Positions 23,782 through 62,297 of a stretch of DNA of 64,000 nucleotides are shown here, piece after piece. Each line of letters opens with the position of its first letter. Positions within the stretch are counted from its first letter, which is position 1. The stretch lies in the NCBI RefSeq assembly GCF_037892425.1, contig NZ_JBBKTT010000001.1:930001-994000 (forward strand). Direction: 5' to 3'. The notes under the pieces are model-generated. The model worked only from the letters and a program-made list of their open reading frames with translations. It was not told the DNA's origin and did no database searches. Position numbers and translations under genes: made by a program. The DNA comes from Lacibacter sp. H375 (GTDB lineage: Bacteria; Bacteroidota; Bacteroidia; Chitinophagales; Chitinophagaceae).

Positions 23782-23854
23782 AATAAGCAATTGGCAACAG
23801 ACAAATAAAACGGGAAGCGCTAATTTACCTATTGCCCATTAGCGATTGCTTATT
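23782..23854. repeat. nested inverted repeat after the ECF sigma gene
   Basis: AATAAGCAAT (23782-23791) pairs exactly with ATTGCTTATT (23845-23854), and CGCTAAT (23818-23824) pairs exactly with ATTAGCG (23838-23844); the two right arms are contiguous. The outer right arm contains the stop codon of the sigma gene. It lies between two genes of the same direction. Confidence 0.6.
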
Positions 23855-25142
23855 CCCTCTCCGTCTTGCTCAGCTTCCCCTGCAATAGCTTTTTCTCGAT
23901 GGCAGATTGGGTTAGTTCTATGGCTTCTTCAAAATACTCCCGGGCTTTATCATATTCTTTGAGCCGCCAATACAGTTCGCCGAGTGTCGCAGGTAGCAGA
24001 TAATAGTTTTTCAATGTTTCCAATCCATGAATAGCTTCTATGGCTTTAATTCCTTCGGTTGCGCCTTTTAGTTCACTTACAACAATAGCCCGATTAAGCG
24101 CAATTACAGGTGATGGATACAATTGATACAACAGATTATAACAATTCAGGATATTGTGCCAGTTGGTGTGATCGTAATCCCTTGCCTGTGCATGTTCGTA
24201 AGCAATACCTGCTTCAATATGATATTTACTGATGGTTTCTCCAGCAGCCGATTCCTCCAGGTGATACACGCCTGTTTCTATTAAAGCCCTGTTCCATTTT
24301 CTACGGTCCTGTTGCTTCAACAGTAAAACATTTCCTTCCTCATCCATACGTGCTGCATTTCGGGAAGAAGTAAAACACATTAATGCCATCAACGCATGTG
24401 CATTCGCATGCTGTACAGACGGGCTTCTGCAAACAAGTTCACACAAACGCATAGCCTCATTCATAAGATCATTGCGAATGAGATCTTCATGATTGGTGGA
24501 ATTATATCCTTCGTTGAACAACAGGTAAATCGCCATCAATACATTTTCCACCCTGTTATTCAGTTCTGATGATGGAGGCAATTCAAACTCGATCTTGTTT
24601 TCACGGAACGTTTGTTTAGCACGATAAAGTCTCTTTTCAATAGTATCGTAATTGCTTACAAAAGCTTTTGCAATTTCTGTTACACTAAACCCACAAAGGA
24701 TACGTAAAATCAAGGCCACCTGCGCTTCTGTTGGTAAAGAAGGATGACAACAGACAAACATCATCCGCAATCTGTCGTCATCAATTGTTTTATCATTCAC
24801 CAACTCATTAACTGTTGGAGCCAATGTATATTCTGATTGTAAAAGATGAGAAACTGATTTTGCATATGCTTCGCCTTGTTTCTGTTTACGGATCACATCC
24901 ACAGCTTTGTTTCGTGCAGCTGTAAACAACCAGGCAGAAGGATTGGCCGGCAGTCCATTGATCTTCCAGTTATCCAAGGCTTTCAACAATGTGTCCTGCA
25001 CCACATCTTCAGCCAGTTGCAGGTTGTGCACGCCAAACACTTTGGTGAGAGCAGCTACCAACTTTCCCCATTCATGACGAAAAAGATGATCAACTGTTTG
25101 CTCTATTGTAGATGACTGTTGCAAAAAAATGCTTTTCTGCAA
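23850..25142 (-). CDS. ECF sigma factor, ECF42 type with long C-terminal extension
   Basis: A 430-aa protein: sigma2 (about 18-85, 'AEDVVQDTLLKALDNW', 'PSAWLFTAARNKAVDVIRKQ'), sigma4 (about 125-185, 'EAQVALILRILCGFSVTEIA', 'YDTIEKRLYRAKQ'), then about 240 residues of helical, TPR-like DUF6596 sequence. This architecture with an adjacent DGPF (YCII) gene defines ECF42, which lacks a classic anti-sigma factor; the C-terminus is needed for activity. The start is uncertain: the frame begins with TTG at 25142 and has no early ATG. The 85-nt gap to the DGPF gene holds a strong hairpin. Confidence 0.88.
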   Translation of the reverse strand: MQKSIFLQQSSTIEQTVDHLFRHEWGKLVAALTKVFGVHNLQLAEDVVQDTLLKALDNWKINGLPANPSAWLFTAARNKAVDVIRKQKQGEAYAKSVSHLLQSEYTLAPTVNELVNDKTIDDDRLRMMFVCCHPSLPTEAQVALILRILCGFSVTEIAKAFVSNYDTIEKRLYRAKQTFRENKIEFELPPSSELNNRVENVLMAIYLLFNEGYNSTNHEDLIRNDLMNEAMRLCELVCRSPSVQHANAHALMALMCFTSSRNAARMDEEGNVLLLKQQDRRKWNRALIETGVYHLEESAAGETISKYHIEAGIAYEHAQARDYDHTNWHNILNCYNLLYQLYPSPVIALNRAIVVSELKGATEGIKAIEAIHGLETLKNYYLLPATLGELYWRLKEYDKAREYFEEAIELTQSAIEKKLLQGKLSKTERE

Positions 25143-25192
25143 GTTATAAAAAGCAGATTGGCAAATGATCCTTTTTAGCAGGCTTTTATGAA

Positions 25193-25218
25193 CAATGCCC
25201 TGCGGTAGCAGGGCATTG
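25193..25218. terminator. intercistronic hairpin between DGPF and sigma genes
   Basis: CAATGCCCTGC (25193-25203) and GCAGGGCATTG (25208-25218) form 11 perfect pairs around a GGTA loop, just after the DGPF stop. No clean T run follows, so it may be a partial terminator or mRNA-stabilising hairpin that sets different levels for the two genes. Confidence 0.55.
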
Positions 25219-25226
25219 CAGACACT

Positions 25227-25574
25227 TTATGCAGGTACTTCCATTTTCATAACCTGTCTTACATGAATGGTTCCTCCCGATTCATAATCAGGATAATCTT
25301 CACATAGTGCAACGGCCTCATCATAATCCCCGGCATTCACGATAAAGTAACCGCCTACAATTTCTTTCCCTTCCGTAAAAGGGCCATCAACTACATTTTT
25401 ACTATTGCCTTTGATCACTTTACCGCCGGGTAATAAAGGTTCGCCTGATACATACTTACCCGCAGCTGCCAGTTTATTAACCCAGGCCAGCCATTTACCC
25501 ATATTATCCTGCATTGCTTCGGGAGATGCGTCGGGAGATACTCCACCTTGAAAGATCAACATAAACTTTTCCAT
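25227..25574 (-). CDS. YCII-related (DGPF) protein
   Basis: A 115-aa dimeric ferredoxin-like-fold protein with 'MEKFMLIFQGG' at the start, the namesake 'VDGPFTEGKEIVGGYFIV' (about 62-79) and an acidic 'EDYPDYESGGTIHVRQV' ending. DGPF proteins are the usual genomic partners of ECF42 sigma factors and likely targets of them; their biochemical role is not established. It lies directly upstream of the sigma gene on the same strand. Confidence 0.9.
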   Translation of the reverse strand: MEKFMLIFQGGVSPDASPEAMQDNMGKWLAWVNKLAAAGKYVSGEPLLPGGKVIKGNSKNVVDGPFTEGKEIVGGYFIVNAGDYDEAVALCEDYPDYESGGTIHVRQVMKMEVPA

Positions 25575-25661
25575 AAAGATTGTTTTAAGAGATGAGTGAA
25601 TAATGATTTATATATTGACGAACAACCGAACATAATCCGGACATGTCCTTGAAATTTATTT

Positions 25662-26414
25662 TTAACTCCCCATCCACTCTTTAAATGCTGCTGCACTTTC
25701 CTGGCTTACGATCACTTCTTCGGGAGCGGCGGGTTGCAGTTCAAGCTCCAGTTTGCTTTTGGGATACGATTTGATTTTCTGGATGGCCGATACATTCACT
25801 AAATACTTCCTGTTTACACGATAGAAAACGGAAGGATCAGTTTCCTTTTCCAAGTCAGCAAGTGATTGGTCAAGTATGAACTTCTGGCTGCGGTTATCAA
25901 CCATACACACCAGTTTATGTGTGGCATAGAAATAAGCAATGTCTTCTGTTTTGATGCTGATGTAATCGCTGCCACGCTTCACCAAAAAACGCTTCCTGAA
26001 TTCTGATGTTTGTTTTTGTTGCGATTGTAACAACTGCTGTAAATTTTGAGCAAAGTATTTTTTCAGTGATTCATATTTATTCAATGCCTGTTGCAGTTTT
26101 TCATCGCTCACAGGTTTTAACAAATAGTCGATGCCATTATGTTCAAAAGCTTCCTGCCAGTATTCATCATAAGCCGTACAGAAAATAATGGGGCAGCTGA
26201 TCTTTACCTTATCTAACAATTGAAACGAAAGCCCATCAGATAATTCAATATCCATGAACAACAGATCGGGCATGGGATGAGTTGAAAACCATTCTGCAGC
26301 CGCTGAGTTACTGCCAAGCACCGCTTCTATTGCAAAATCCTGGTTTGCTTTCAGCAAAGCTTTCTTAAGTTTTTCTGCGGCTGGTTTTTCATCTTCAATA
26401 ATTACAATGCGCAT
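25662..26414 (-). CDS. LytTR-family response regulator
   Basis: The 250-aa protein starts at MRIVIIEDE; the longer frame enters the gap to the kinase. The receiver domain (1-120) has acidic residues at 7-9, phospho-acceptor Asp55 in 'LLFMDIELSDG' and the Lys of 'DYLLKPV'. The LytTR DNA-binding domain (about 145-250) shows 'FLVKRGSDYISIKTEDIAYF', 'FYRVNRKYLVNVSAI' and 'LELELQPA..EVIVSQE'. It is the partner of the kinase ending 17 nt upstream. Target genes are unknown. Confidence 0.94.
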   Translation of the reverse strand: MRIVIIEDEKPAAEKLKKALLKANQDFAIEAVLGSNSAAAEWFSTHPMPDLLFMDIELSDGLSFQLLDKVKISCPIIFCTAYDEYWQEAFEHNGIDYLLKPVSDEKLQQALNKYESLKKYFAQNLQQLLQSQQKQTSEFRKRFLVKRGSDYISIKTEDIAYFYATHKLVCMVDNRSQKFILDQSLADLEKETDPSVFYRVNRKYLVNVSAIQKIKSYPKSKLELELQPAAPEEVIVSQESAAAFKEWMGS

Positions 26415-26431
26415 ATAAGTGATATTTACAA

Positions 26432-27502
26432 TCAATCGATTTTCAGAATGGGTAAGCAAACTCTGAAAGTTTCTTCTTCTTCTTCAACACGAATGGATTT
26501 ACCTGTACTGAGCCGGTACCGTTCTTCGAGGTTTTGCAAACCAATACGTGATGATGGTTTACGCAGCTTTTTTTCTTTTAGCCTGTTCCGCATTTGTAAT
26601 TCATGCCCCACAAATCGAAGCTGTATCTGCATGGGTGATGTTTCCGAAAATTCATTATGCTTTACCGCATTCTCTAACAAGACCTGTAACGAAATAGGCG
26701 GAATTAAATACTGATCCCATAATGCTTCATCAACATCCACTTCCAGTTGCAACGCATCTTCAAACCTGATCTTTAACAATGAAAAATAATCCTGCATAAA
26801 CAACATCTCATCACGTAGCAATACAAGATCCTTTGCTTTGTTCTGCAAAATATAGCGGTACACATCGGCCATATGATCGTTAAAGAGCTTGGCCTTCTCC
26901 GGTTTCTCTTCAATTAAATGCGACAATGTATTGAGCGAATTAAAAATAAAATGCGGATCGATCTGGTTCTTCAAAGCCTCCAGTTCAGCTTCTGCTTTTG
27001 CACGTTCCAATTGTTCCTGCTGCAGTTTATCATTTGCCACATCCCGCACCAAAAAAACCGTTTCATACAAATTCACCAAAAAGAAAACAGCAATTAAAAT
27101 GATGATGGATGATAGCCGCACCACATGCCAATCAACCACTCCGTTCATGAATATCTTGTACCAGCCCACCAGCATCAACACACTTACTGGTACTACATAA
27201 AACGGAATAGTGATGATAAAAGCTAAAATTTTCTTCAACGGTTTATTCAACCAATCGAAATACGAACGCAGTGTAAATTGTAAAAACCGGACTCCTTCAT
27301 AGATTACTAACGCAATTAATATGGTGTAGAGATAGCTGAGTTTAATTTGCCAGTTGCTGAATTGTGCATGCGGCACCATCTGCGTAATTAAGGGAATGGC
27401 AATGCCAAACAAAGGCACCAGCACCACACGGATACCGATGTCGTTGATCTTGTCTTTCGGACCAAACAGTTTCGTCGCTATGTTTTGTGCGTTAGTCGGC
27501 AT
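26432..27502 (-). CDS. LytS/YehU-type sensor histidine kinase
   Basis: A 356-aa membrane kinase with four hydrophobic helices (about 25-150), then a coiled-coil 'DKLQQEQLERAKAEAELEAL' and the His_kinase motif 'NQIDPHFIFNSLNTLSHLIE' with phospho-acceptor His. The ATPase part has 'PPISLQVLLENAVKHN' (N box) and 'GIGLxN'-like 'RIGLQNLEERY'. It has no extracellular sensor domain, so signals are probably sensed in or near the membrane. It forms an operon with the LytTR regulator. Confidence 0.94.
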   Translation of the reverse strand: MPTNAQNIATKLFGPKDKINDIGIRVVLVPLFGIAIPLITQMVPHAQFSNWQIKLSYLYTILIALVIYEGVRFLQFTLRSYFDWLNKPLKKILAFIITIPFYVVPVSVLMLVGWYKIFMNGVVDWHVVRLSSIIILIAVFFLVNLYETVFLVRDVANDKLQQEQLERAKAEAELEALKNQIDPHFIFNSLNTLSHLIEEKPEKAKLFNDHMADVYRYILQNKAKDLVLLRDEMLFMQDYFSLLKIRFEDALQLEVDVDEALWDQYLIPPISLQVLLENAVKHNEFSETSPMQIQLRFVGHELQMRNRLKEKKLRKPSSRIGLQNLEERYRLSTGKSIRVEEEEETFRVCLPILKID

Positions 27503-27595
27503 CAGTTCCGGTTTCGTTCGTTTGCTGCTTGTGCATGTAAAGTTTGTAAAATAGATTCGAATACAAACAAATTTTTCAACCCAAAAACCAACTGT

Positions 27596-28030
27596 ATGGA
27601 CATGAATTCAATTAACTGGCTTGCTGTATTGGCGGCTGGCATTTCCGCTTTTGTATTGGGCGGCGTTTGGTATTCTCCTTTGTTATTTGGTAAAGCATGG
27701 ATGAGTGAAAATAAACTCACTGAGGAAGATGTAAAGAAAGGCAACGCTGCAAAAATTTATGGTTGGGCCTTTGTGCTTTCACTCATCATGGCAGCTAACC
27801 TGGCGATGTTCCTTGCTGATACACCGGCTGAATGTACCGGCAACTGTGCGCAAAAAACAGATGTTACCTGGGGGACCATTGCAGGTTTTCTTGCTGGTAT
27901 CTGGGGTTTTGCTGCTATTGCCATTGCTGCTTTGTTTGAACAAAAAACTGCACGCTACATTTTTATTAATGGGGGTTACGCATTATTTGCACTTACACTA
28001 ATGGGCGCAATCATTGGTGTATGGCGATAA
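27596..28030 (+). CDS. DUF1761 membrane protein
   Basis: A 144-aa protein with four predicted helices, starting at MDMNSINWLAVL. 'GISAFVLGGVWYSPLLFGKA' followed by W is the DUF1761 signature, continued by 'KIYGWAFVLSLIMAANLAMF' and a C-terminal 'GGYALFALTLMGAIIG'. The function of the family is unknown. The start chosen excludes 37 codons that overlap the divergent kinase gene. It is the first gene of a rightward series of small genes running to 31445. Confidence 0.88.
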   Translation: MDMNSINWLAVLAAGISAFVLGGVWYSPLLFGKAWMSENKLTEEDVKKGNAAKIYGWAFVLSLIMAANLAMFLADTPAECTGNCAQKTDVTWGTIAGFLAGIWGFAAIAIAALFEQKTARYIFINGGYALFALTLMGAIIGVWR

Positions 28031-28074
28031 AATCATGACATTAACCATTACCTTGTTATCAAAACCTTATCGTC

Positions 28075-28590
28075 ATGAAGTATTTGCTTTTTCTTTTCGC
28101 CTCCACAATAACCATACAGCTAGTTGCACAAAAACCTTGCAGTGCTCCTGCTTATCGTCAATTCGATTTTTGGATCGGTGAATGGGATGTGTATGGAAAA
28201 ACAGGTGCTAAAGCCGGCGACAGCAAGATCAGTTTGATACTCGACAGTTGTATTATTCTTGAAGAATGGACGAGTACAGGTTCAAACCAAGGGTTACGGT
28301 TTGCAGGCAAAAGTTTTAATACCTGGAACAGGAATACAAAGCAATGGCAACAAACCTGGGTTGATAATACAGGCGGCAGTACCGAATATCTCGAAGGGAA
28401 ATATGATGATCAGAAAATTATCTTTCAAACAAAGCCATTTCCTTTTTCAAAAGACACGATAGCTGTAAGAAAGTTAACCTTCTTCAATCTGTCGAAAGAT
28501 AAAGTGCGCCAGTTTGCAGAAATTACAAAAGACAATGGCGCTACCTGGCAAACAGAATATGATCTTGAATACCGTCGCAGAAAAGGATGA
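28075..28590 (+). CDS. exported DUF1579-like protein
   Basis: A 171-aa protein with a signal peptide (cleavage near VAQ). The mature part starts 'YRQFDFWIGEWDVYG', continues 'ILEEWTSTGSNQGLRFAGKS' and 'KQWQQTWVDNTGGSTEYLEG', and ends in a strand-rich region; this is the lipocalin-like pattern of DUF1579 and related secreted proteins. The function is unknown. It follows DUF1761 by 44 nt and resembles in kind the lipoprotein at 41632. Confidence 0.75.
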   Translation: MKYLLFLFASTITIQLVAQKPCSAPAYRQFDFWIGEWDVYGKTGAKAGDSKISLILDSCIILEEWTSTGSNQGLRFAGKSFNTWNRNTKQWQQTWVDNTGGSTEYLEGKYDDQKIIFQTKPFPFSKDTIAVRKLTFFNLSKDKVRQFAEITKDNGATWQTEYDLEYRRRKG

Positions 28591-28641
28591 ATGGGGTAAA
28601 TTTCTATTATCTATTTCCGAACTTTAAGAAAAACCTTTATC

Positions 28642-29157
28642 ATGAACCGTAAATCATTTTTGCAGAACGTAGCTGTTGGCAGCGGCATCATTGCTATCCC
28701 TTCAATGATACTTGCACAGGACACAAAGCCTGTGCAACAAACAAAACCTGATCCGTTGCCTGCTGATAAAGTAAAAGACTTTGTAAGTGCCGGACATAAC
28801 AATCTTGATAAAGTAAAACAGTTGTTAACTGAATTCCCGACACTCATCTATGCCACTTGGGATTTGGGTGGTGGCGATTTTGAAACAGGATTGGAAGGTG
28901 CCGGGCATGTTGGCAATAAAGAAATTGCGAATTACCTGATTGAAAAAGGAGCACGTACCAATTTATTTGTGTTGACGATGTTGGGTAAAACGCAAATCGT
29001 AAAAGCTTATATCGAAACCTGGCCGTCGTACCTGTATGCAAGAGGTCCACACGGTCTTACTTTGTTGCATCATGCAAACCGTGGAGGTGAGGACGCAAAA
29101 GAATTGGTGGAGTACCTGCAAAGTAAAGGATTGAAAGAAACTAAATCTCCATTATAA
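28642..29157 (+). CDS. exported ankyrin-repeat protein
   Basis: A 171-aa protein. The N-terminus 'MNRKSFLQNVAVGSGIIAIP' is a signal sequence of Tat-like character with RK rather than RR. About three ankyrin repeats follow ('FVSAGHNNLDKVKQLLTEFP', 'AGHVGNKEIANYLIEKGART', 'HGLTLLHHANRGGEDAKELV'). It is probably a periplasmic binding scaffold. It is co-directional with the VOC gene 17 nt downstream. Confidence 0.82.
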   Translation: MNRKSFLQNVAVGSGIIAIPSMILAQDTKPVQQTKPDPLPADKVKDFVSAGHNNLDKVKQLLTEFPTLIYATWDLGGGDFETGLEGAGHVGNKEIANYLIEKGARTNLFVLTMLGKTQIVKAYIETWPSYLYARGPHGLTLLHHANRGGEDAKELVEYLQSKGLKETKSPL

Positions 29158-29174
29158 ACCTTAAAACTTACAAC

Positions 29175-29570
29175 ATGGATAATGCAATCAGCTGGTTTGA
29201 AATTCCGGCAACCGATATAGACAGAGCACAAAAATTTTATGAGGCCGTTTTTGATTTTCAAATGCAGGCATTAGATTTCCAGCAAACTAAAATGCGGATG
29301 TTTCCCATTGACGATCCTATGAAAGGTATTGGCGGTACACTTGTTGATAGTGGCGGTTTTCATAAACCTTCTGCTACCGATGGTCCACTCATCTATCTCA
29401 ATGGCAATCCCGATGTACAGATATTTCTAGATCGTGTAGAAGCAGCAGGCGGTAAAATACTTGTTCCGAAAACTGTGATCTCTGATGAATATGGCGATAT
29501 GGCTGTGTTCTTAGATACAGAAGGCAACCGCATTGCATTACATAACATTCCTGAAAAGTACAGACAATAA
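29175..29570 (+). CDS. VOC (glyoxalase/bleomycin-resistance) family protein
   Basis: A 131-aa vicinal-oxygen-chelate protein: 'ISWFEIPATDIDRAQKFYEA' at the start and 'FLDTEGNRIALHNIPEK' at the end, two beta-alpha-beta-beta-beta modules. The metal-ligand Glu/His set is not obviously complete, so binding rather than catalysis is possible. It is cytoplasmic. It sits in a close run of small genes. Confidence 0.88.
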   Translation: MDNAISWFEIPATDIDRAQKFYEAVFDFQMQALDFQQTKMRMFPIDDPMKGIGGTLVDSGGFHKPSATDGPLIYLNGNPDVQIFLDRVEAAGGKILVPKTVISDEYGDMAVFLDTEGNRIALHNIPEKYRQ

Positions 29571-29579
29571 GCAATTGAA

Positions 29580-30065
29580 ATGAAAAAGAACAGCATTGCG
29601 TTCTTGCTGCTATTTTCTGTTTGCAGTTTTGTAACAGAGCTGCCATCATTCAACGGATCAGTAAAATCATTTCACTGGCTCAAAGGTTCATGGCAAATGC
29701 AAACGAGGCGTGGAATCATTACTGAAAAATGGGCCGTTGCTAACGACAGCACACTTGCAGGAGAAAGCATCATGACACGTTCTGATGGAACAGAAATTAT
29801 GTTGGAAAAAATTCAACTGGCATTTCGTAGCGGCAATTATTATTATATCCCGACTGTAAAGAATCAGAACGGAGAGCAGCCGGTAGAATTTAAAATCACT
29901 TCGCATAGTGAAACAGGTTTTGTGGCTGAAAATGCACAGCATGATTTTCCAAAACGTATCAGTTATACGTTGGTCAATAAAGATTCTATTCATGCAGTGA
30001 TCGATGATGGCGCTGCAACTCCTGTAAAAAAATCAAACTTTTATTATTCACGTAAAAAAGATTGA
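29580..30065 (+). CDS. exported DUF6265-like protein
   Basis: A 161-aa protein with an N-terminal hydrophobic signal segment. The mature part has 'FHWLKGSWQMQTRRGIITEK' followed by W, 'IQLAFRSGNYYYIPTV' and 'ENAQHDFPKRISYTLVNKD', a lipocalin-like strand pattern seen in DUF6265. The function is unknown. It starts 9 nt after the VOC gene, and the SRPBCC gene begins 2 nt after its stop. Confidence 0.75.
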   Translation: MKKNSIAFLLLFSVCSFVTELPSFNGSVKSFHWLKGSWQMQTRRGIITEKWAVANDSTLAGESIMTRSDGTEIMLEKIQLAFRSGNYYYIPTVKNQNGEQPVEFKITSHSETGFVAENAQHDFPKRISYTLVNKDSIHAVIDDGAATPVKKSNFYYSRKKD

Positions 30066-30067
30066 TC

Positions 30068-30571
30068 ATGTCTTCCTTCGATTGGAGCAGGTTTACTGTT
30101 CGCATCAACATTAAAAGCAATTCAATTGAACAACTCTATCGTGCATGGGCCACAAGAGGCGGTATTGAATACTGGTTTTTAAGAATGAGTGAATACAGTC
30201 AACCAAATGGTTCATTACGAGGTGACGATGAACCTGTGCACAAAGGCGATACTTATCGATGGCGCTGGTTTGGTTATAGTGACGAAGTAACTGAAACGGG
30301 CGAAATACTTGATTGTAATGGCATCGATTTTTTCAAATTCCGTTTTGGCGATGCTGGCAACTGCAGTGTTCGCATTTATCCCGAGCAAGATGAACTCATA
30401 GTTGAATTGTTACAGGATAATATACCAACCGATGAAAAAGCAAAAGAAATGTGGCATATCGGTTGTAAAACCGGCTGGACTTTTTATCTCGCCAATATGA
30501 AATCGATGTTTGAAGGTGGTATTGATCTGCGTAACAAGAATGAGGCTTTGCAAAACGTCATCAGCGCATAA
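30068..30571 (+). CDS. SRPBCC/AHSA1-family protein
   Basis: A 167-aa protein from the ATG at 30068; the longer frame begins with TTG. It starts 'FTVRINIKSNSIEQLYRAWA', typical of the activator-of-Hsp90-like SRPBCC branch, and ends 'HIGCKTGWTFYLANMKSMFE', the usual C-terminal helix that closes the hydrophobic pocket. It may bind or transform a small hydrophobic ligand. It is cytoplasmic and in a tight run between the DUF6265 and TfoX genes. Confidence 0.87.
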   Translation: MSSFDWSRFTVRINIKSNSIEQLYRAWATRGGIEYWFLRMSEYSQPNGSLRGDDEPVHKGDTYRWRWFGYSDEVTETGEILDCNGIDFFKFRFGDAGNCSVRIYPEQDELIVELLQDNIPTDEKAKEMWHIGCKTGWTFYLANMKSMFEGGIDLRNKNEALQNVISA

Positions 30572-30580
30572 AAAATCAGC

Positions 30581-30949
30581 ATGGCATTCAACGAAAAACT
30601 AGCCGACCGCACAAGAGAATTGATAGCCCTCACACAAAAAAATGTGGAAGAGAAGAAAATGTTTGGGGGGCTTTGTTTCATGGTGAACGATAAAATGTGC
30701 ATTGGTGTAGAAAAAGAACGGTTGATGGTGAGGATCGATCCTGCACGTTATGATGAAGCAATGGAAAAAGAAGGTTGCGCACCCATGGATTTCACCGGAA
30801 AAGTAATGAAGGGTTTTGTATTTGTAGATGCTGACGCTGTTACTACAAAAAAGAAACTCGAGTATTGGGTAACACTTGCACTTGAATATAATAAGATCGC
30901 CAAAGTATCAAAGAAGAAAAATGAAGTATCAACAGCAGGAAGCATGTAA
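30581..30949 (+). CDS. TfoX N-terminal-domain protein
   Basis: A 122-aa protein with the TfoX_N pattern 'KKMFGGLCFMVNDKMCIGVE' and 'GCAPMDFTGKVMKGFVFVDA'. It lacks the C-terminal domain of the Haemophilus Sxy/TfoX competence activator, and such short proteins are widespread outside competent species. Its last 29 nt overlap the start of the DinB gene, implying coupled translation. Confidence 0.87.
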   Translation: MAFNEKLADRTRELIALTQKNVEEKKMFGGLCFMVNDKMCIGVEKERLMVRIDPARYDEAMEKEGCAPMDFTGKVMKGFVFVDADAVTTKKKLEYWVTLALEYNKIAKVSKKKNEVSTAGSM

Positions 30950-31445
30950 CATACTTGAACGTACACCACTTGTTTTAAGATCATTGCTTACAGGTTTATC
31001 AAATGATCTCATCCTGACTAACGAAGGACCGGATACGTTTTCACCTTTCGATGTAGTGGGTCATTTAATTCATGGTGAAAAAACAGATTGGGTAGTACGT
31101 GCAAAGATCATTTTGGAACATGGGATAAATAAACAGTTCGATCCATACGACCGGTTTGCTCAGTATGAAGAGAGCAAAGGAAAAAGTTTAGAGCAATTGC
31201 TGAATGAATTTGAAGAGATCAGGAAAGAAAATGTTGCATGGCTGCAATCAATTCAATTAACTGAAGATGATCTGGAACGAAAAGGAAAACACCCGGTGTT
31301 GGGAGAAGTTACCTTACGGAATCTTTTGTCAACCTGGGTAGTGCATGATCTTACGCATATTGCGCAGATCACAAGAGTAATGTCGAAACAGTATATAGAA
31401 GAAATGGGACCATGGCCGCAATTCTTCAGGATACTGCAGTTCTAA
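30921..31445 (+). CDS. DinB-like four-helix metalloprotein
   Basis: The 174-aa protein starts at MKYQQQEACN inside the end of the TfoX gene. It is the DinB/YfiT fold with three metal-ligand His: 'DVVGHLIHGEKTDW', and 'WVVHDLTHIAQI' near the C-terminus. Relatives act as thiol-dependent transferases, but many are uncharacterised. It is cytoplasmic and the last gene of the 27596-31445 run. Confidence 0.88.
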   Translation: MKYQQQEACNILERTPLVLRSLLTGLSNDLILTNEGPDTFSPFDVVGHLIHGEKTDWVVRAKIILEHGINKQFDPYDRFAQYEESKGKSLEQLLNEFEEIRKENVAWLQSIQLTEDDLERKGKHPVLGEVTLRNLLSTWVVHDLTHIAQITRVMSKQYIEEMGPWPQFFRILQF

Positions 31446-31464
31446 TGCAATTCAGAAAAGTTCT

Positions 31465-31854
31465 TTATAATTCGGTACGAAAACGAAGTGCCAGTTCAAG
31501 ACCGCTGTCAGCTGGAGTAATTGCAACGCTGCCACCGAGTACGGCAGCCATTGGCATAAGCTGTTCCATTTTATGGAATATGTCTGCACTGTAACAACGG
31601 CCATTTTCATTTACCTGTAGAAAAACCTGTTGCTGTTGTTCGTAAGCTGAAATCCGGATGCAGTCGCTTTCGGTTTGGGCAACTGCTGTTTGTAGTAAGT
31701 TACTTAGTACTGATGCAAGCAAATCACGGTCGGCTGATACTTGCAGATCAGGAGCAATATCGTTTACAAAAAAACTGTTGCGACTAACTGCAGAAGGTAA
31801 AATTGATTGGGCAACATGGCCAACAAGTTGTTTAAGGGCAAATTGATTTTTCAT
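31465..31854 (-). CDS. stand-alone, degenerate GHKL ATPase domain protein
   Basis: From the ATG at 31854 the product is 129 aa and matches only the ATP-binding half of a histidine kinase. 'VSADRDLLASVLSNLLQTAV' is the N box with Asn52 kept, but the second Asn is Thr56. The G1 box is reduced to 'VNENGRC' and a G2 box is missing, although 'AAVLGGSVAI' keeps the last strand. There is no HisKA or sensor domain. It is probably non-catalytic, perhaps binding another kinase. Its upstream side is the 1.2 kb repeat-rich region. Confidence 0.6.
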   Translation of the reverse strand: MKNQFALKQLVGHVAQSILPSAVSRNSFFVNDIAPDLQVSADRDLLASVLSNLLQTAVAQTESDCIRISAYEQQQQVFLQVNENGRCYSADIFHKMEQLMPMAAVLGGSVAITPADSGLELALRFRTEL

Positions 31855-33074
31855 ATAAAAGATTTGAGGAAGCAAGGATGGTTTACTTACAAAAACAAAG
31901 GGTACAATTCAATTGTTCTCACAGGAGTAAAATAGTTTTCAAAAGAGTTGGATTAAAAACGGGGCCCTCTATAACTATCAACATGAACATTCAATAATGG
32001 GTTGTGGGTACGGATCAAACATCGGTTTTATACAATTGGATTTTGGATAAGCTTTCATAAGGTTTGGTTTCAGAGATAAAGTTTTCAAGGGTATGGATCA
32101 AACAGTGGTTTTACATACAAATTGGATTTCGAATAATGCTTCCAGGGTTCAGTTGTTCAAGTGGATACGGATTGTTGATTTATGCTTTGGATATTGTTTC
32201 AATGTCATTGACAATACAAAGTAACAACCAAAGTAAGCCGGATAAAATAGTACTTGAGCTCATTAAGCCGTACTTGTTTTATTGTGTTGTTGTAGTTGAA
32301 ATTCGGCAGCAGGTAAAGCTAATTCGGCAACAAAGGTTGGATTTGCGCAACCTGCCAATGAAAACCCAATAATAACATAACCACAATTAAAAAGGATACT
32401 TTTTAAAGTTGATGCTGGGTTAATATGAAGATTCTAATGGATGAAAGAAAAGGCTGAAGCTGATAGAGAAAGATGAAAAAAAAAAGCTGATCGTGGAAAC
32501 GACTGGCCGATTTTCGAAACTTAGGTTTCGGGTAAGTTAATCATCATGCAATTTTTCGAAAACCTGGTTTACACAAGTACGGATCAAAACTGGTTTTCTT
32601 ATAGATATTGGTATAAGTAGTTTGGGTAAACGACCTTTTAAGAACCATTGTGGTTTCAATGGGTTTTGGGTAAACGGTACAGGTTAAATTCGGTTTTTGG
32701 TTTGGATACAGGACATCAGTAAGGGTAAACGACCTTTAAAAGAGCTCTTGTGGTTTTAGTGGGTTTTGGGTAAACGGTACGGTTAAAAGCAGGCTTTTCA
32801 ATCAGGAATAATTACATGTGGGTTTTGGGTAAACAGTTTTTCGTCGGGATCAATTCGTTATATATTGTCAGTTAGCTGCGTTTTGGGTTGTCCGTATCAT
32901 CATCGTTGCGGGTACAAAGTAACAACCTCGGCGAGCCTCCTACAATAGAACCTTTACTCATTAGCTTGTACTTGTTTCTAGTAGTTTTCGTGTAGTCGAA
33001 ATTCTATAGGCATGAACCGACAGTAGCAGTAAAATCTTAATTTGTAATCATATTTTAATAAAACAACCCTGACT
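31855..33074. repeat. 1.2 kb non-coding repeat-rich region
   Basis: No convincing gene lies here. The 20-mer GGGTTTTGGGTAAACGGTAC occurs at 32661-32680 and 32761-32780, exactly 100 bp apart, and its first 15 nt recur at 32820-32834. GGGTAAACGACCTTT precedes each full copy (32624, 32723), so a unit of about 100 bp is tandem. A second family, 'GGATCAAA..TGGTTTT', occurs near 32011, 32095 and 32581. A diverged 90-bp segment is present at 32215-32304 and 32913-33004, sharing TACAAAGTAACAACC at one end and GAAATTC at the other. It separates divergent genes. Confidence 0.7.
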
Positions 33075-33530
33075 ATGCAATCAGCAGCAACAGACCCCAA
33101 CGACTATATTGCAGAAATGCCGGAGGAGCGGCAGGCAGCATTTAAGAAACTAAGAGCCGTCATCAAAAAGAATTTGCCCAAAGGTTTTAAAGAAGGGATG
33201 GGCTACGGCATGCTTGGGTATGCCGTGCCTCACTCAAAATACCCGGCCGGTTATCATTGCAACCCCAAAGATCCGTTACCTTTTATGGGCATTGCTTCGC
33301 AAAAGAACTTTATTGCGGTGTACCATATGGGTATTTACGCAAGCCCTGAGTTGCTGAAATGGTTTACGGCAGCACATGCAAAAGCATCTCCAAAAAAATT
33401 GGATATGGGCAAAAGCTGTATCCGTTACAAAAAGCCGGAGGATATCCCTTTCGAACTCATCGGAGAGCTTGCAGCTAAAATGTCGGCCGATGAATGGATC
33501 GCTCTTTATGAAAAAAATTTAAAACGATAA
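33075..33530 (+). CDS. DUF1801 protein
   Basis: A 151-aa soluble protein with the DUF1801 (YdhG-like) core: 'DYIAEMPEERQAAFKKLRAV', 'EGMGYGMLGYAVPH', 'NFIAVYHMGIYA' and 'KSCIRYKKPEDIPFELI'. The fold resembles frataxin-like proteins; a few relatives bind iron-sulphur clusters or act in stress responses, otherwise the function is unknown. It is the first gene after the repeat region, followed by the exported YCII gene after 3 nt. Confidence 0.88.
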   Translation: MQSAATDPNDYIAEMPEERQAAFKKLRAVIKKNLPKGFKEGMGYGMLGYAVPHSKYPAGYHCNPKDPLPFMGIASQKNFIAVYHMGIYASPELLKWFTAAHAKASPKKLDMGKSCIRYKKPEDIPFELIGELAAKMSADEWIALYEKNLKR

Positions 33531-33533
33531 GTA

Positions 33534-33914
33534 ATGAAGCAACTGCTTACAATTATCTGCCTTCTGTTCGCCTTGCAGCTATCTGCACAAGACAAGACAA
33601 AAGCACCGCAATGGCTGGGCATTCTTACGCTGGCCGACAAATATAAAGAAGCAAAAAACTGGACCAAAACAGATGAAGCCATCACTGGTGAACATTTCCA
33701 ACGGTTGGTAAAGCTGAAGAACGAAGGTGTTGTTTTGCTTGCCGGAAGAACACAGTTGGATTTAGCTGATCCCGGCATGATGGGCCTGGTGATCTTTTAT
33801 GCAAAGGATGAAAAGGATGCCATGCAGTTTATGCAGGAAGATCCTGCGGTGAAAAACAAGATCATGCTGGCGAAAGTAGTGCCATATGCAGTTGCCGTAA
33901 ACAAATGCGAATAG
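33534..33914 (+). CDS. exported YCII-like protein
   Basis: A 126-aa protein with a clear signal peptide (cleavage near LSA-Q19), then a YCII-type ferredoxin-like domain: 'GILTLADKYKEAKNWT', 'HFQRLVKLKNEGVVLLAG' and 'LVIFYAKDEKDAMQFMQEDP'. YCII proteins are usually cytoplasmic; export is unusual. It is translationally close to the VOC gene. Confidence 0.82.
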   Translation: MKQLLTIICLLFALQLSAQDKTKAPQWLGILTLADKYKEAKNWTKTDEAITGEHFQRLVKLKNEGVVLLAGRTQLDLADPGMMGLVIFYAKDEKDAMQFMQEDPAVKNKIMLAKVVPYAVAVNKCE

Positions 33915-33919
33915 ACGGT

Positions 33920-34300
33920 ATGAATCTTAACAAACTCAGCCCCCTGCTTTATACCAGTCAACTGAAAGATACTGTTGACTGGTATGTTCATGTGCTTGGT
34001 TTTACCTGCACCGATTTTGTTCCCGTTCACGGATTTGCAAGAGTACAGTTGCATGCGGTAGATATTATGCTTGCATTACCGAACGCACACATTCCTTTTG
34101 AACAACCACAGTTTACCGGTTCTTTTTATATCAATACAAATAGCGTTGACTACTGGTGGGAAAAATTAAAAGATACATGTAAGGTTTGCTATCCTATTGA
34201 AAATTTTGATTATGGAATGCGTGAGTTTGCGGTGTATGATATCAACGGTTATCTCTTGCAATTTGGTCAACCTGTTTTTAATTCAAACACAAACACATGA
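33920..34300 (+). CDS. VOC family protein
   Basis: A 126-aa protein starting at MNLNKLSPLL, 5 nt after the preceding stop; an ATG at 33905 inside the previous gene is an alternative. 'YTSQLKDTVDWYVHVLGFTC' opens the first module and 'EFAVYDINGYLLQFGQPV' closes the second, with the usual Glu/Gln metal position near the end. It is a second, only distantly similar VOC protein beside the one at 29175. Its stop overlaps the ankyrin start by 4 nt. Confidence 0.86.
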   Translation: MNLNKLSPLLYTSQLKDTVDWYVHVLGFTCTDFVPVHGFARVQLHAVDIMLALPNAHIPFEQPQFTGSFYINTNSVDYWWEKLKDTCKVCYPIENFDYGMREFAVYDINGYLLQFGQPVFNSNTNT

Positions 34301-35043
34301 ACAACCCTGCGGATGATATTATCGAACTGATCGAACTGCATGCAGCAGATGGCATTCACAACTGTTTCAGATTAGGCGTTGATGTCAACAGCCTGCATAA
34401 CAACCAACCTCTCATTTATGAACTGCTGAGTGAGTACACCCGCTCTCCCCGTTTCAAAGATTGTGTAAAAGCATTTGTTGATGCTGGTTTGCGGTTCGAC
34501 GACAGAGCTTTACTTGCGGTGTTGTTGAATGATGCAACAATGCTGGAAGATGAACTAAAAATAGATCCATCGATTCCTTCAAAACGAATTTCATTCCGTG
34601 CAGCTTACACTCCGCTTGAAGATGTTACGCTGTTACATGTATGCGCAGAATTTAATCATGTGGCCTGTGCTGAAGTGTTGGTAAAACATGGAGCCGATGT
34701 AAATGCAGCAGCAGGTGTGGATGAATATGGCTTTGGGGCGCAAACACCCATCTTTCACACGGTGAATCAGAACAATCATCAATCAAAAGAGATGATGCAT
34801 TTTCTGTTAGAGCATGGGGCAAGGCTGGATATAACGGTGAAAGGAATTATTTGGGGAAAAGGTTATCCGTGGGAAACATTGATGCCCTCAGTCAACACAA
34901 TCAGTTATGCAATGATGGGGTTATTGCCGCAGGTGCACCGGAATGAAAAAACCATTCATGAAGTGGTGTCGCTTTTGTTGAAGCATCAGTACAATATAGA
35001 TTATACGTCTGGTAATGTTCCAAACAAATATCTTAATTCCTGA
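34297..35043 (+). CDS. ankyrin-repeat protein
   Basis: A 248-aa cytoplasmic protein (no signal) with degenerate repeats at the N-terminus and clear ones at about 100-185: 'DVTLLHVCAEFNHVACAEVL' followed by VKHGADVN, then 'TPIFHTVNQNNHQSKEMMHF' followed by LLEHGARLD. It starts with ATGA overlapping the VOC stop, so they are coupled. A protein-binding role is likely; the partner is unknown. Confidence 0.85.
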   Translation: MNNPADDIIELIELHAADGIHNCFRLGVDVNSLHNNQPLIYELLSEYTRSPRFKDCVKAFVDAGLRFDDRALLAVLLNDATMLEDELKIDPSIPSKRISFRAAYTPLEDVTLLHVCAEFNHVACAEVLVKHGADVNAAAGVDEYGFGAQTPIFHTVNQNNHQSKEMMHFLLEHGARLDITVKGIIWGKGYPWETLMPSVNTISYAMMGLLPQVHRNEKTIHEVVSLLLKHQYNIDYTSGNVPNKYLNS

Positions 35044-35155
35044 TAGTAAAAAAAGAATGATCACTTCTTGTTCAACCACCGCTTGTCATAAATGCCTTTT
35101 CTGTTTGCAGATACAGTTTTAACTTCTAACAATTCTTCACACAAAAATTTGTGTT

Positions 35156-36034
35156 ATGAACCGACTTATCATCATCCTCATCGCATCATTGTTTCTTTCA
35201 ACAGAAACAAAAGCAAAAGAACCACCAATGCTGATTACAGCAGAGTGGCTCAACGATAATATCAACAATCCTGAATTTGTTTTGCTGCAAGTGAATTTTC
35301 TCCGGTTCGATTATGAAAAAGAACATATCAAAGGGGCCCGTTTGTTATGGCCCGATTGGCTGGCAGCAAATTCGCCTGATGGAAATTTCAATCCACCCGA
35401 TCCAAAAGAAGCAACAAAGGTATTACAACAGCTTGGCGTCAATAAAAATTCAAGAGTCATTCTTTATCATACCAAAGGAGATGTAACTGTCACTGCACGC
35501 ATGTTTGTTACATTGGAATACCTCGGCTTAACAGGAAGAGTACATTATCTGAATGGCGGCTTAGAAGCATGGAAGAAAGCAGGCTATCCGGTAACAAGTG
35601 AATTGCCTGTAGTGAAGAAAGGTGATTTTGTTGCAAGCGTCAACACTGTTTTGGTTGATAAAGATTATGTGTTAAGATCACTGCAATCACCATTGGCAGT
35701 TGTGGTTGATGCACGAATGAAACGTTTTTATGATGGCGACCCGACAGGTAATCCAAGAGACGGACATATCACCGGCGCTAAAAATATTCCTTATCCTGAT
35801 CTGCTTGATTCAAGTTTTCAATTCAAACATATCGATCAACTAACCGGTTATTTTCAACCCGTAGTGCCCGATAAGAAAACAGAAATTGTGACCTATTGTT
35901 TCATTGGACAAACAGCAAGTGTTGTTTACATGGCTGGCAGGTTCTTAGGTTATAATGTGAAAGTTTATGACGGTTCTATGCAGGAATGGAGTCGCAAAGA
36001 ATATTTGCCGATGGAAAAAACAAAGAAGGATTAA
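35156..36034 (+). CDS. exported two-domain sulfurtransferase (rhodanese)
   Basis: A 292-aa protein with a signal peptide (cleavage near TKA) and two rhodanese domains (about 22-140, inactive; 165-285, active). The C-terminal domain carries 'VVVDARMKRFYDGDP', 'GHITGAKNIPYPDLLDS' and the catalytic loop 'TYCFIGQTAS' with its Cys. The overall layout is that of thiosulfate/3-mercaptopyruvate sulfurtransferases. It would transfer sulfane sulphur in the periplasm. The exported DinB gene follows 34 nt downstream. Confidence 0.9.
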   Translation: MNRLIIILIASLFLSTETKAKEPPMLITAEWLNDNINNPEFVLLQVNFLRFDYEKEHIKGARLLWPDWLAANSPDGNFNPPDPKEATKVLQQLGVNKNSRVILYHTKGDVTVTARMFVTLEYLGLTGRVHYLNGGLEAWKKAGYPVTSELPVVKKGDFVASVNTVLVDKDYVLRSLQSPLAVVVDARMKRFYDGDPTGNPRDGHITGAKNIPYPDLLDSSFQFKHIDQLTGYFQPVVPDKKTEIVTYCFIGQTASVVYMAGRFLGYNVKVYDGSMQEWSRKEYLPMEKTKKD

Positions 36035-36068
36035 CAATTTACAATACACTAAAACTAAATTGAACAAA

Positions 36069-36602
36069 ATGAGAAAACAATTACTGATGCTTGTTGTAAT
36101 TCTGCTTGCAGCTTTTACCACTAAAGCACAACTGGCCGATTCCATCAAAGCGTATTACATTAAAGATTGGGAACGTGCAAAAGCATATACCAAAGAATAC
36201 CTGGATGCAATGCCGAAAGACAAATACAGTTTCAGGGCGCAAGACAGCATCCGCACATTTGCACAACAAATGCTGCATCTGTCTCAAGGCATTGTTGGTT
36301 TTATTGCAAACGGCACCGGTGCCCAACGTATTTCATTCGGACAAAACCTGGAACAACGTGCAACAGCACAATCAGCTGACTCAGTAATACATTTTGTAAC
36401 GACGAGTTATGATTATGCCATTGAAAGCATCCGTAATATGGATGTAAGTAAGTTAACCGAAACAGCCGGCAGAGGTAATTTTATGTTTTCACGATTGGTT
36501 TGGTTAAATAAAGCATTTGAACATCAAACACACCATCGCGGACAAACCACTATCTATATCCGTTTGGTGGGTATTAAACCACCGAATGAAAAATTATTCT
36601 AA
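36069..36602 (+). CDS. exported DinB-like protein
   Basis: The 177-aa protein starts at MRKQLLMLVV with a signal peptide (cleavage near TKA-Q); the longer frame lies inside the rhodanese gene. The mature part is a four-helix DinB domain, with 'MLHLSQGIVGFIANGTGAQR' and the C-terminal metal-ligand region 'EHQTHHRGQTTIYIRLVGIK'. Export is uncommon for DinB proteins. It is followed by a strong terminator at 36626-36657. Confidence 0.85.
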   Translation: MRKQLLMLVVILLAAFTTKAQLADSIKAYYIKDWERAKAYTKEYLDAMPKDKYSFRAQDSIRTFAQQMLHLSQGIVGFIANGTGAQRISFGQNLEQRATAQSADSVIHFVTTSYDYAIESIRNMDVSKLTETAGRGNFMFSRLVWLNKAFEHQTHHRGQTTIYIRLVGIKPPNEKLF

Positions 36603-48320: not shown

Positions 48321-48436
48321 GCAAAACTTACATTATGAGAAAATTCAACACCGGCAGCAAATAAAAATATAGGGTACGGATCGCCGGTTCGTTGACTGCT
48401 TAACGAAATAGTTGATGCACAATATGTATTGTGAAA

Positions 48437-61984: not shown

Positions 61985-62015
61985 TCCGTTAACATATTTG
62001 AACTCTAAACAAGTT

Positions 62016-62044
62016 GGGCCCCGATAGAAATCGTGGGCCCTTTT
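62016..62044 (+). terminator. rho-independent terminator
   Basis: GGGCCCCGAT (62016-62025) pairs with ATCGTGGGCCC (62030-62040) with one bulged T around an AGAA loop, then TTTT. It ends the 57053-61984 series. Confidence 0.75.
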
Positions 62045-62297
62045 GCTTACCTCTGAAACCACAAAAAAATAGATCTTTTATGTTCAGAAAGAGTTACAAC
62101 AATTTGAGTTGCTATTATAAAAGACAGTATAATAAATTAATTGTAGGGAGGAACTAATTGTTCATCAGCGGGATATTATGGAATACCAGGAGCTTTGTAA
62201 GGGAAATTGGAATTGGGTTGGACGGGGACCAGATGTGACGAGATAAATATAGACCAGTCTTTTGGAATATGCAAGAAAAACAAACCCTTCTTTCAGT
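62045..62297. other. intergenic region with no recognisable feature
   Basis: About 250 AT-rich nucleotides between the terminator of the oxidoreductase gene and the stop of the JmjC-like gene. I see no gene-like frame, clear hairpin or stop-to-stop palindrome here, unlike the other convergent gaps of similar size. Confidence 0.5.

Follow-up and report, generated by a model that had tools for sequence, protein, structure and literature searches.

The window, a stretch of 64,000 nucleotides from Lacibacter sp. H375 (genome G000 in our comparisons), contains at 31855-33074 an intergenic tract between divergent genes, flanked by a small GHKL-like open reading frame (ORF) and a DUF1801 ORF and overlapped by a plus-strand ORF of 102 aa (32064-32372). 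The layered repeats that a preliminary description had reported for this tract are present in the sequence. A 59-nt pair, which includes the GGGTTTTGGGTAAACGGTAC pair, lies at 32640 and 32740 with a spacing of exactly 100 bp and 80% identity, and a partial third copy of this 100-bp repeat is found at 32818-32837. Three units of the form GGATCAAA..GGTTTT occur near 32006, 32089, and 32575, and two segments of about 90 bp, 73% identical over 92 bp, stand in direct orientation. Tandem Repeats Finder reports no array in the tract, even at a score of 30, and the repeat copies must therefore be far diverged. A DNA search of the tract's own genome found no further copy at E<0.1, and hence none of the dispersed copies expected of a mobile element. 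No long terminal inverted repeats surround the tract; the four inverted pairs detected measure 12-19 nt each, and three of them (I1, I2, and I4) bracket the tract with arms that fall inside the flanking GHKL-like and DUF1801 ORFs. Neither the tract nor the short-RNA loci described below match any Rfam family at the gathering threshold, and the 16 weak matches seen at E<=5 all score far below the respective gathering scores. The surrounding region (23850-36600) is a dense block of small genes whose order around the tract is largely kept in the congeners compared; Pfam models place AHSA1, TfoX_N, DinB_2, DUF1801, YCII, glyoxalase, ankyrin, and rhodanese domains in it, and it also holds an ORF that appears sigma-factor-like by eye.

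Both 90-bp segments contain, on the minus strand, a TGTAG-N8-CTACA-like palindrome and a rigid promoter-like motif, CTATT-N18-TTGTTWCTTTGT, which in the two copies here reads CTATT-N18-TTGTTACTTTGT. The duplication is therefore best explained as a promoter region that heads two units. Judged from these features, the tract probably consists of one minus-strand transcription unit duplicated in tandem, each copy with a 90-bp repeat at its head and then a G-poor leader of 361 to 403 nt. The leader of unit 1 continues into the small GHKL-like ORF at 31854. The features of the two units are as follows.

32991-33008, minus strand: activator-like palindrome of unit 2, TGTAG-N8-CTACA type with one mismatch, beginning 60 nt upstream of the promoter motif
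32914-32948, minus strand: promoter-like motif of unit 2, within the second 90-bp copy; exact pattern match (G000:C1:962914-962948, minus)
32511-32913, minus strand: leader of unit 2, containing the 100-bp repeats; a terminator-like hairpin is reached before any ORF
32474-32520, minus strand: terminator-like hairpin and U-run closing unit 2 (-8.9 kcal/mol, z -2.51)
32291-32308, minus strand: activator-like palindrome of unit 1, TGTAG-N8-CTACA type with two mismatches, beginning 58 nt upstream of the promoter motif
32216-32250, minus strand: promoter-like motif of unit 1, within the first 90-bp copy; exact pattern match (G000:C1:962216-962250, minus)
31855-32215, minus strand: leader of unit 1, 361 nt, G-poor, with tandem sites antisense to short RNAs
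31465-31854, minus strand: small GHKL-like ORF of 129 aa, in the same minus-strand unit as the leader of unit 1

The promoter pattern CTATT-N18-TTGTTWCTTTGT has 24 matches, spread over 22 of the 394 family genomes and over 12 genera, and the reversed pattern has a single match. Seven of the 24 loci belong to the genus of the window, with two units in G000 and in G003 and one each in G001, G002, and G011. Upstream of the promoter motif the palindrome is perfect in 5 of the 24 loci, has at most one mismatch in 16, and at most two in 20, where mononucleotide shuffles lead one to expect 0.01, 0.08, and 1.18 (maximum 5), respectively; its best match begins either 36 or 58-60 nt from the promoter motif in 21 of the 24. 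Such fixed spacings suggest that the promoter heading these units is activated by a regulator that binds the palindrome. Hairpins comparable to that of unit 2 were recognized by eye at the unit ends of G002, G001, and G006. The leaders themselves fold no better than their shuffles (z 0.42 for G001, z 0.47 for unit 1). A third unit with palindrome and promoter lies elsewhere in the genome of the window (L363; G000:C1:2048909, minus), and consists of a predicted RNA of about 230 nt that lacks an early ORF and bears an RNA-A site at -22.4 kcal/mol and, on folding, a terminator-like hairpin. A unit in G011 (L364) is related to it and has more sites.

What fills the minus-strand leaders is a succession of stretches antisense to the 5' arms of three predicted short RNAs, here designated RNA-A, RNA-B, and RNA-C. 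The RNA-A locus, about 60 nt long and intergenic, has promoter-like sequence followed by a conserved 5' arm, a GC hairpin, and a T-run (U-run in the RNA), and in both RNA-A and RNA-B the conserved arm is preceded by promoter-like sequence and followed by a terminator-like hairpin. RNA-A and RNA-B are thus candidate sRNAs, presumably expressed. In the predicted centroid structure of RNA-A the 5' arm is unpaired, and the hairpin alone pairs in the alignment. This alignment, A1, comprises 37 loci; the invariance of its arm is by construction, since the loci were picked by arm pattern, while the hairpin, which was not selected for, has double changes in three of its nine pairs. A covariance model made from A1 (R1), run on 59 genomes, finds copies scoring at least 74 bits in 25 of 36 genomes of the window's family and in none of 23 from other families, many of these copies being members of A1, the source alignment of the model.

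R1 also detects paralogs, which in G000 are RNA-B (GTTTTTCATAGGATATTGGATTTTAAA..), present three times, and RNA-C, so that this genome has one RNA-A, three RNA-B, and one RNA-C copy, a family built, to judge from the folds of RNA-A, as a single-stranded 5' arm and then a terminator hairpin. Among 15 paralogs retrieved from other genomes, ten, representing ten further genera, are identical to RNA-B over the first 23 nt of its arm, and the other five are not. RNA-C, with the arm GGTTTCAGAGGTAAGC and a strong hairpin, is located in the window.

62005-62061, minus strand: RNA-C, a weak paralog of the short-RNA family (25.7 bits with R1), whose arm also occurs in G003, G002, and G001

RNA-A is widespread in the family. 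Its exact 30-mer was found in at least 118 stretches in named genomes, Flavihumibacter petaseus and Niastella soli included; among the matches listed, 78 of 80 titles bear Bacteroidota names, mostly of Chitinophagaceae, and the remaining titles name a Williamsia MAG and an uncultured bacterium. From a sample of the phylum, 12 of 296 genomes match RNA-A at 1e-5; ten of these are of the window's own family, and the two from outside it (L354 and L355) have different arms. A search with the G001 array as query returned some match in 197 of the 394 family genomes, and among the matches listed this was mostly one match of about 30 nt, which is the RNA-A locus. We had considered a repeat of the array type distributed across the family, and rejected it on the ground that the 30-nt match represents RNA-A and not the array.

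In the duplex scan, RNA-A and RNA-B sites roughly alternate along the leaders, most clearly in G001, and a strong RNA-C site is present in the window and in G003. The 100-bp and GGATCAAA repeats of the tract are themselves such predicted antisense sites. Because the RNA-A and RNA-B arms resemble each other, many sites score for both RNAs. The predicted sites in the two units of the window, with their duplex energies in kcal/mol, are these.

31933-31964, minus strand: RNA-A site, -33.6, also pairing RNA-B at -25.1; a covariance-model match lies on the opposite strand at 31934-31978
32005-32026, minus strand: RNA-A site, first GGATCAAA unit, -27.0
32064-32092, minus strand: RNA-C site, -27.9
32079-32106, minus strand: RNA-A site, second GGATCAAA unit, -28.6
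32107-32147, minus strand: RNA-B site, -19.4
32150-32174, minus strand: RNA-A site, -20.9
32566-32594, minus strand: RNA-A site, third GGATCAAA unit, -26.1
32662-32694, minus strand: RNA-A site, one copy of the 100-bp repeat, -18.7
32692-32726, minus strand: RNA-B site, between the two 100-bp copies, -19.1
32762-32794, minus strand: RNA-A site, other copy of the 100-bp repeat, -22.0

With sites defined as duplexes at or below -18 kcal/mol, unit 1 (scanned at 31852-32215) has six for RNA-A, three for RNA-B, and one for RNA-C, against shuffled means of 0.35, 0.18, and 0.22; the leader of unit 2 has three, one, and none, against 0.63, 0.15, and 0.27. Seven RNA-A sites reach -24 kcal/mol on the two strands of the 64-kb window, and the tract accounts for four of them, each on the minus strand. 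A lone RNA-A site elsewhere in the window, at about 48366-48405 on the minus strand (-27.2 kcal/mol), is situated about 170 nt upstream of a minus-strand ORF of 973 aa that looks like DNA polymerase I by eye, and is possibly a chance match or an mRNA target.

The same measure was applied to ten leaders totaling 4.07 kb, two each from G000 and G003, one each from G011, G006, G010, G002, and G001, and one from G409, which belongs to another genus; expectations were drawn from 60 dinucleotide shuffles, and the leaders from the genus are orthologues and hence dependent samples. There are 38 RNA-A sites against 4.2 in the shuffles (maximum 10), 23 RNA-B sites against 2.2 (maximum 7), and 7 RNA-C sites against 1.8 (maximum 5). 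The control queries gave 7 against 4.6 (maximum 7) for the RNA-A hairpin, 1 against 5.3 for reversed RNA-A, and 2 against 2.3 for reversed RNA-B, and the opposite strand of the leaders has one RNA-A and one RNA-B site. The leader sites copy the 5' arm of the short RNAs and not the hairpin. At -18 kcal/mol, background DNA also gives clusters of RNA-A sites, for which reason comparisons with background applied tighter cuts of -22 to -26. Twenty-two RNA-A sites in the ten leaders reach -26 kcal/mol, where 871 kb of other family DNA has six, excluding the perfect antisense of RNA-A itself, and nowhere in those 871 kb do three RNA-A sites at or below -22 cluster within 400 nt. At the loose cut, the background scan picked out clusters of sites in L187 and L178.

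The tract itself is conserved in part of the genus. With the window sequence as query it was found at E<=1e-3 in 6 of 14 genus genomes, its own included: over nearly the whole length and at 86% identity in G003, and in parts in G011, G006, G010, and G002. Local comparison detected it also in G001, so that the array is seen at this locus in 7 of the 14. In these congeners the tract adjoins the DUF1801 gene, just upstream of it. A DUF1801 match exists in 13 of the 14 genomes, all except G007, and no array motifs were seen upstream of the gene in G004, G005, G008, G009, and G012; G013 stands outside the array comparison. The most regular array is that of G001, a run of units on the plus strand starting with TTTTCAATGGGTACGGATCAAAA or similar. 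Between G000 and G003, identity is 91.5% over 11 sites, 85.7% over the promoter motifs, and 85.2% over the rest of the tract. The preliminary description had named a tract lacking conservation and decaying at random among relatives as the outcome that would count against its readings; what we found is a tract wholly or partly conserved in congeners, with its sites conserved above the rest. Pairing under selection should leave a wobble asymmetry, and one is seen at RNA-A sites, where compatible transitions number 40 in 540 positions and incompatible ones 13 in 395; no such asymmetry is seen for RNA-B (25 in 597 compatible, 12 in 286 incompatible). G003 was left out of these counts because it is too close to G000. 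The array of G409 has no match to the promoter pattern, and among 58 other genomes of its genus only two matches of 27 to 30 nt were found, by which we rejected it as a genus-wide feature.

The promoter pattern holds nothing of the short RNAs, and loci found by this pattern outside the genus therefore provide a test of whether the leaders are built to pair with them. The test is a semi-independent one, applied to the first 220 nt of each of 17 promoter-motif loci, four of which were first detected by their resemblance to the G001 promoter. Seventeen RNA-A sites were found against 3.0 expected (maximum 7) and 15 RNA-B sites against 1.9 (maximum 7), with controls of 14 against 13.2 for the hairpin, 7 against 6.9 for RNA-A reversed, and 4 against 2.6 for RNA-B reversed. 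RNA-C is not enriched in these loci outside the genus (1 against 2.0), and their opposite strand has one RNA-A site and no RNA-B site. The 17 loci are not all independent of one another, as four come from g113 and three from g51; with one locus per genus (11 loci), the counts are 9 against 1.8 (maximum 6) for RNA-A and 9 against 1.4 (maximum 5) for RNA-B. RNA-A sites reaching -24 kcal/mol occur in 5 of the 17, of which four are from g113. L314 has no site at or below -18, and L319, L321, and L328 have a single weak site each.

A second pattern, made of the palindrome and CTATT-N18-TTG, gave 18 matches in the 394 genomes against two for its reversal. It contributed 13 new loci, two from the window's own genus and three from g113, with 9 RNA-A sites against 1.6 (maximum 4) and 8 RNA-B sites against 1.3 (maximum 6); reversed RNA-A gave 2 against 4.0 and reversed RNA-B 3 against 1.6 (maximum 4). 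In L360, L365, L367, and L368 the rest of the promoter motif is absent and the loci look like chance matches to the pattern, and L360 and L368 supply 4 of the 17 sites of this set. L362, the leader of a GHKL-like ORF, has none. The exact promoter motif occurs in only 22 of the 394 family genomes, and RNA-A is commoner than that. By eye, and for the last type by eye from translations, the loci fall into the following types.

L312, L327, L331, L332, L363, L364, and L371: the clearest cases of a site-bearing short RNA that reaches a terminator ahead of any ORF (L363 alone was folded)
L311, L313, L329, and L330: no early ORF
L373: a longer run of RNA-B-like sites
L315-L318, L356-L358, and L362: leader of a small GHKL-like ORF
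L311, L319-L321, and L328: leader or start of a response-regulator or CheB-like gene

That the promoter motif stands at the head of, or before, response-regulator and CheB-like genes may be a sign of a single regulon that includes both the activator and its signalling genes.

The preliminary description had called the neighbouring GHKL gene degenerate. It is not obviously so, its protein being 94% identical in G003. The HATPase_c match of the ORF (E-value 0.0075) falls short of the cut-off of that model, and an AlphaFold model predicted from the single sequence has a pLDDT of 50 and was set aside. Compared with ORFs of L356-L358 and L362 (g113 and g82), which share the same palindrome, the small ORF of the window shows 35-41% identity, with BLASTP E-values of 1.6e-24 to 3.8e-31. 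The GHKL-like ORFs of G001 (L036) and G002 (L035) are shorter, at 94 and 92 aa, and are without much of the C-terminal part present in G000 and G003. No match to the GHKL-like protein was found in G011, G006, and G010, which retain the array.

Complementarity of the leaders to the putative pairing region of the short RNAs, themselves candidate sRNAs, exceeds chance, and that pairing region is predicted to be single-stranded, as would be expected of the target of a sponge. We read the tract as a regulated sRNA sponge with multiple sites, fused in part to a putative signalling mRNA, and put the probability of this reading as a whole, the two minus-strand units included, at roughly 0.7. A regulator that binds TGTAG-N8-CTACA would switch on the promoter CTATT-N18-TTGTTWCTTTGT; to judge from the palindrome and the linked genes, this activator is probably a response regulator. 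The RNA made would be a long G-poor leader, folding no better than its shuffles, in which roughly alternating sites would trap RNA-A and RNA-B, and within this genus also RNA-C, by way of their presumed seeds, the 5' arms. By titrating the short RNAs in the cell, the leader would relieve their targets. Having several sites per RNA, each sponge molecule could take up several sRNAs and cover the paralogs together. In unit 1 the sponge would be the 5' leader of the small GHKL-like gene, and the transcript would also yield the protein, presumably one of signalling function; in unit 2 and several relatives, the sponge RNA appears to terminate without an ORF. The small-RNA locus proposed in the preliminary description thus had the right direction, but most of the partner RNAs lie elsewhere in the genome; its regulatory array was likewise well aimed, but the sites look like sites of RNA-RNA pairing on the minus strand and not like protein sites.

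An unlikely alternative is that the array serves only as a cis-regulatory 5' leader, to which the short RNAs bind at several places and so regulate the GHKL-like mRNA at the level of translation or stability, without meaningful titration. The small GHKL-like ORF does follow the sites in G000, G003, G001, G002, and g113, and it is conserved in G003. However, three congeners keep the array without a match to the protein, several loci in other genera (L327, L331, L332, and L371) look by eye like site-bearing short RNAs that end in a terminator with no ORF, and the sites stretch some 300 nt or farther ahead of the start codon, where one or two close to it would suffice for such control. We regard it as very unlikely that the short-RNA genes and the tract share a DNA-binding or structural element and that the RNA complementarity is incidental. 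An intergenic position between divergent genes and short motifs recurring with a rough period would suit such an element, whereas the orientation of the sites, fixed relative to the promoter motif (38 RNA-A and 23 RNA-B sites against 1 and 1 on the opposite strand of the ten leaders; for the loci of other genera, 17 and 15 against 1 and 0), and the position of the RNA-A and RNA-B arms between promoter-like sequence and terminator-like hairpin speak against it.

Still less probable, in our estimate, is a tract without function, left by a mobile element or by a decayed run of duplicated short-RNA genes. Its copies are diverged, the locus is patchy among congeners, and there are two units in G000 and G003 against one promoter match each in G001, G002, and G011. 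Yet the sites are more conserved than the rest, the promoter motif and palindrome are kept, the RNA-A hairpin is not repeated along with the arm, long terminal inverted repeats are missing, and the same architecture is found elsewhere, in other genera. The preliminary description had suggested specifically that the tract is what remains of a mobile element bounded by the 90-bp repeats. This finds no support: the repeats are direct and each carries a palindrome and promoter-like motif heading a unit, the pairing sites are conserved above their surroundings, and the unit reappears in further genera, where the same promoter motif again heads it. For its further suggestion of a recombination site, nothing was found in support. 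Covariance-model matches on the plus strand of arrays had also been considered as decayed sRNA genes; we rejected this explanation, as the hairpins are absent and the promoter motifs and terminator-like hairpins belong to the minus strand.

Sponge RNAs directed at sRNA families are already known in bacteria. QrrX of Vibrio cholerae pairs with the conserved region of four sibling sRNAs (PMC9732341), and resembles the units proposed here, in which the arrangement is presumed, in that it is transcribed on its own, is controlled by a dedicated transcription factor, and is directed against an sRNA family. It differs in coming from another phylum and in having been found by Hfq binding, and the available text describes neither a tandem array nor an ORF on the same RNA. 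CrfA of Caulobacter, a regulated sponge of the four siblings SisA-D (PMC12559287), is again from another phylum and was found through Hfq, with no tandem array described in the text available. Other known sponges derive from operon spacers, 3' ends, tRNA spacers, and 5' UTRs, and the chbBC spacer against ChiX, SroC, 3'ETS-leuZ, ChiZ, and IspZ are part of or derived from other transcripts, including 5' UTRs (PMC8383071). For sponges of the chbBC spacer and SroC type, the portions of that article available to us describe no tandem site arrays and no sponge of a Bacteroidota sRNA family. CsrB, with about 18 GGA-motif sites, titrates a protein (PMC8383071); like it, the leaders would be single RNAs with many repeated sites that titrate a global regulator, the sites here being antisense to RNAs. 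In build, RNA-A, RNA-B, and RNA-C resemble FopS of Bacteroides, a multicopy sRNA family with a single-stranded 5' seed and a Rho-independent terminator (PMC11697453); the word "sponge" is absent from the main text of that paper, as far as its available text goes. Bacteroides is described, in the text available, as having no obvious Hfq or ProQ homologue (PMC7366714). The titles and portions of text covered on sRNA sponges and on small RNAs of Bacteroidota and Chitinophagaceae, within a coverage that mostly excludes subscription papers and preprints, report no such array or RNAs, and we found in them no precedent for a tandem array alternating sites for paralogous RNAs. The sponges described in those portions pair with one or two sRNAs or with a single family of siblings, and for none of them is a tandem array mentioned.

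Whether the loci form a dedicated sponge regulon of the bacterial family, in which one activator governs several RNAs that each carry one to many tandem sites directed at the whole set of paralogous sRNAs and in some cases also encode a GHKL-like protein or a response regulator, seems to us about evenly balanced. If they do, one signal would at once lift a layer of sRNA repression and make a signalling protein, and the genome of the window would have three such units, the two described here and the stand-alone unit at G000:C1:2048909.

A sponge of RoxS is reportedly known in Bacillus subtilis, which belongs to a phylum other than that of the tract. Outside bacteria, multi-site sponges of microRNAs are known, and a natural array with alternating sites for paralogous sRNAs would represent their bacterial counterpart. 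The finding exposes a small-RNA family, widespread in Chitinophagaceae-like genomes, whose presumed seeds are very conserved. The signature of promoter and palindrome allows candidate sponge units to be listed by pattern search, and a role for sRNA titration in these bacteria becomes directly testable.
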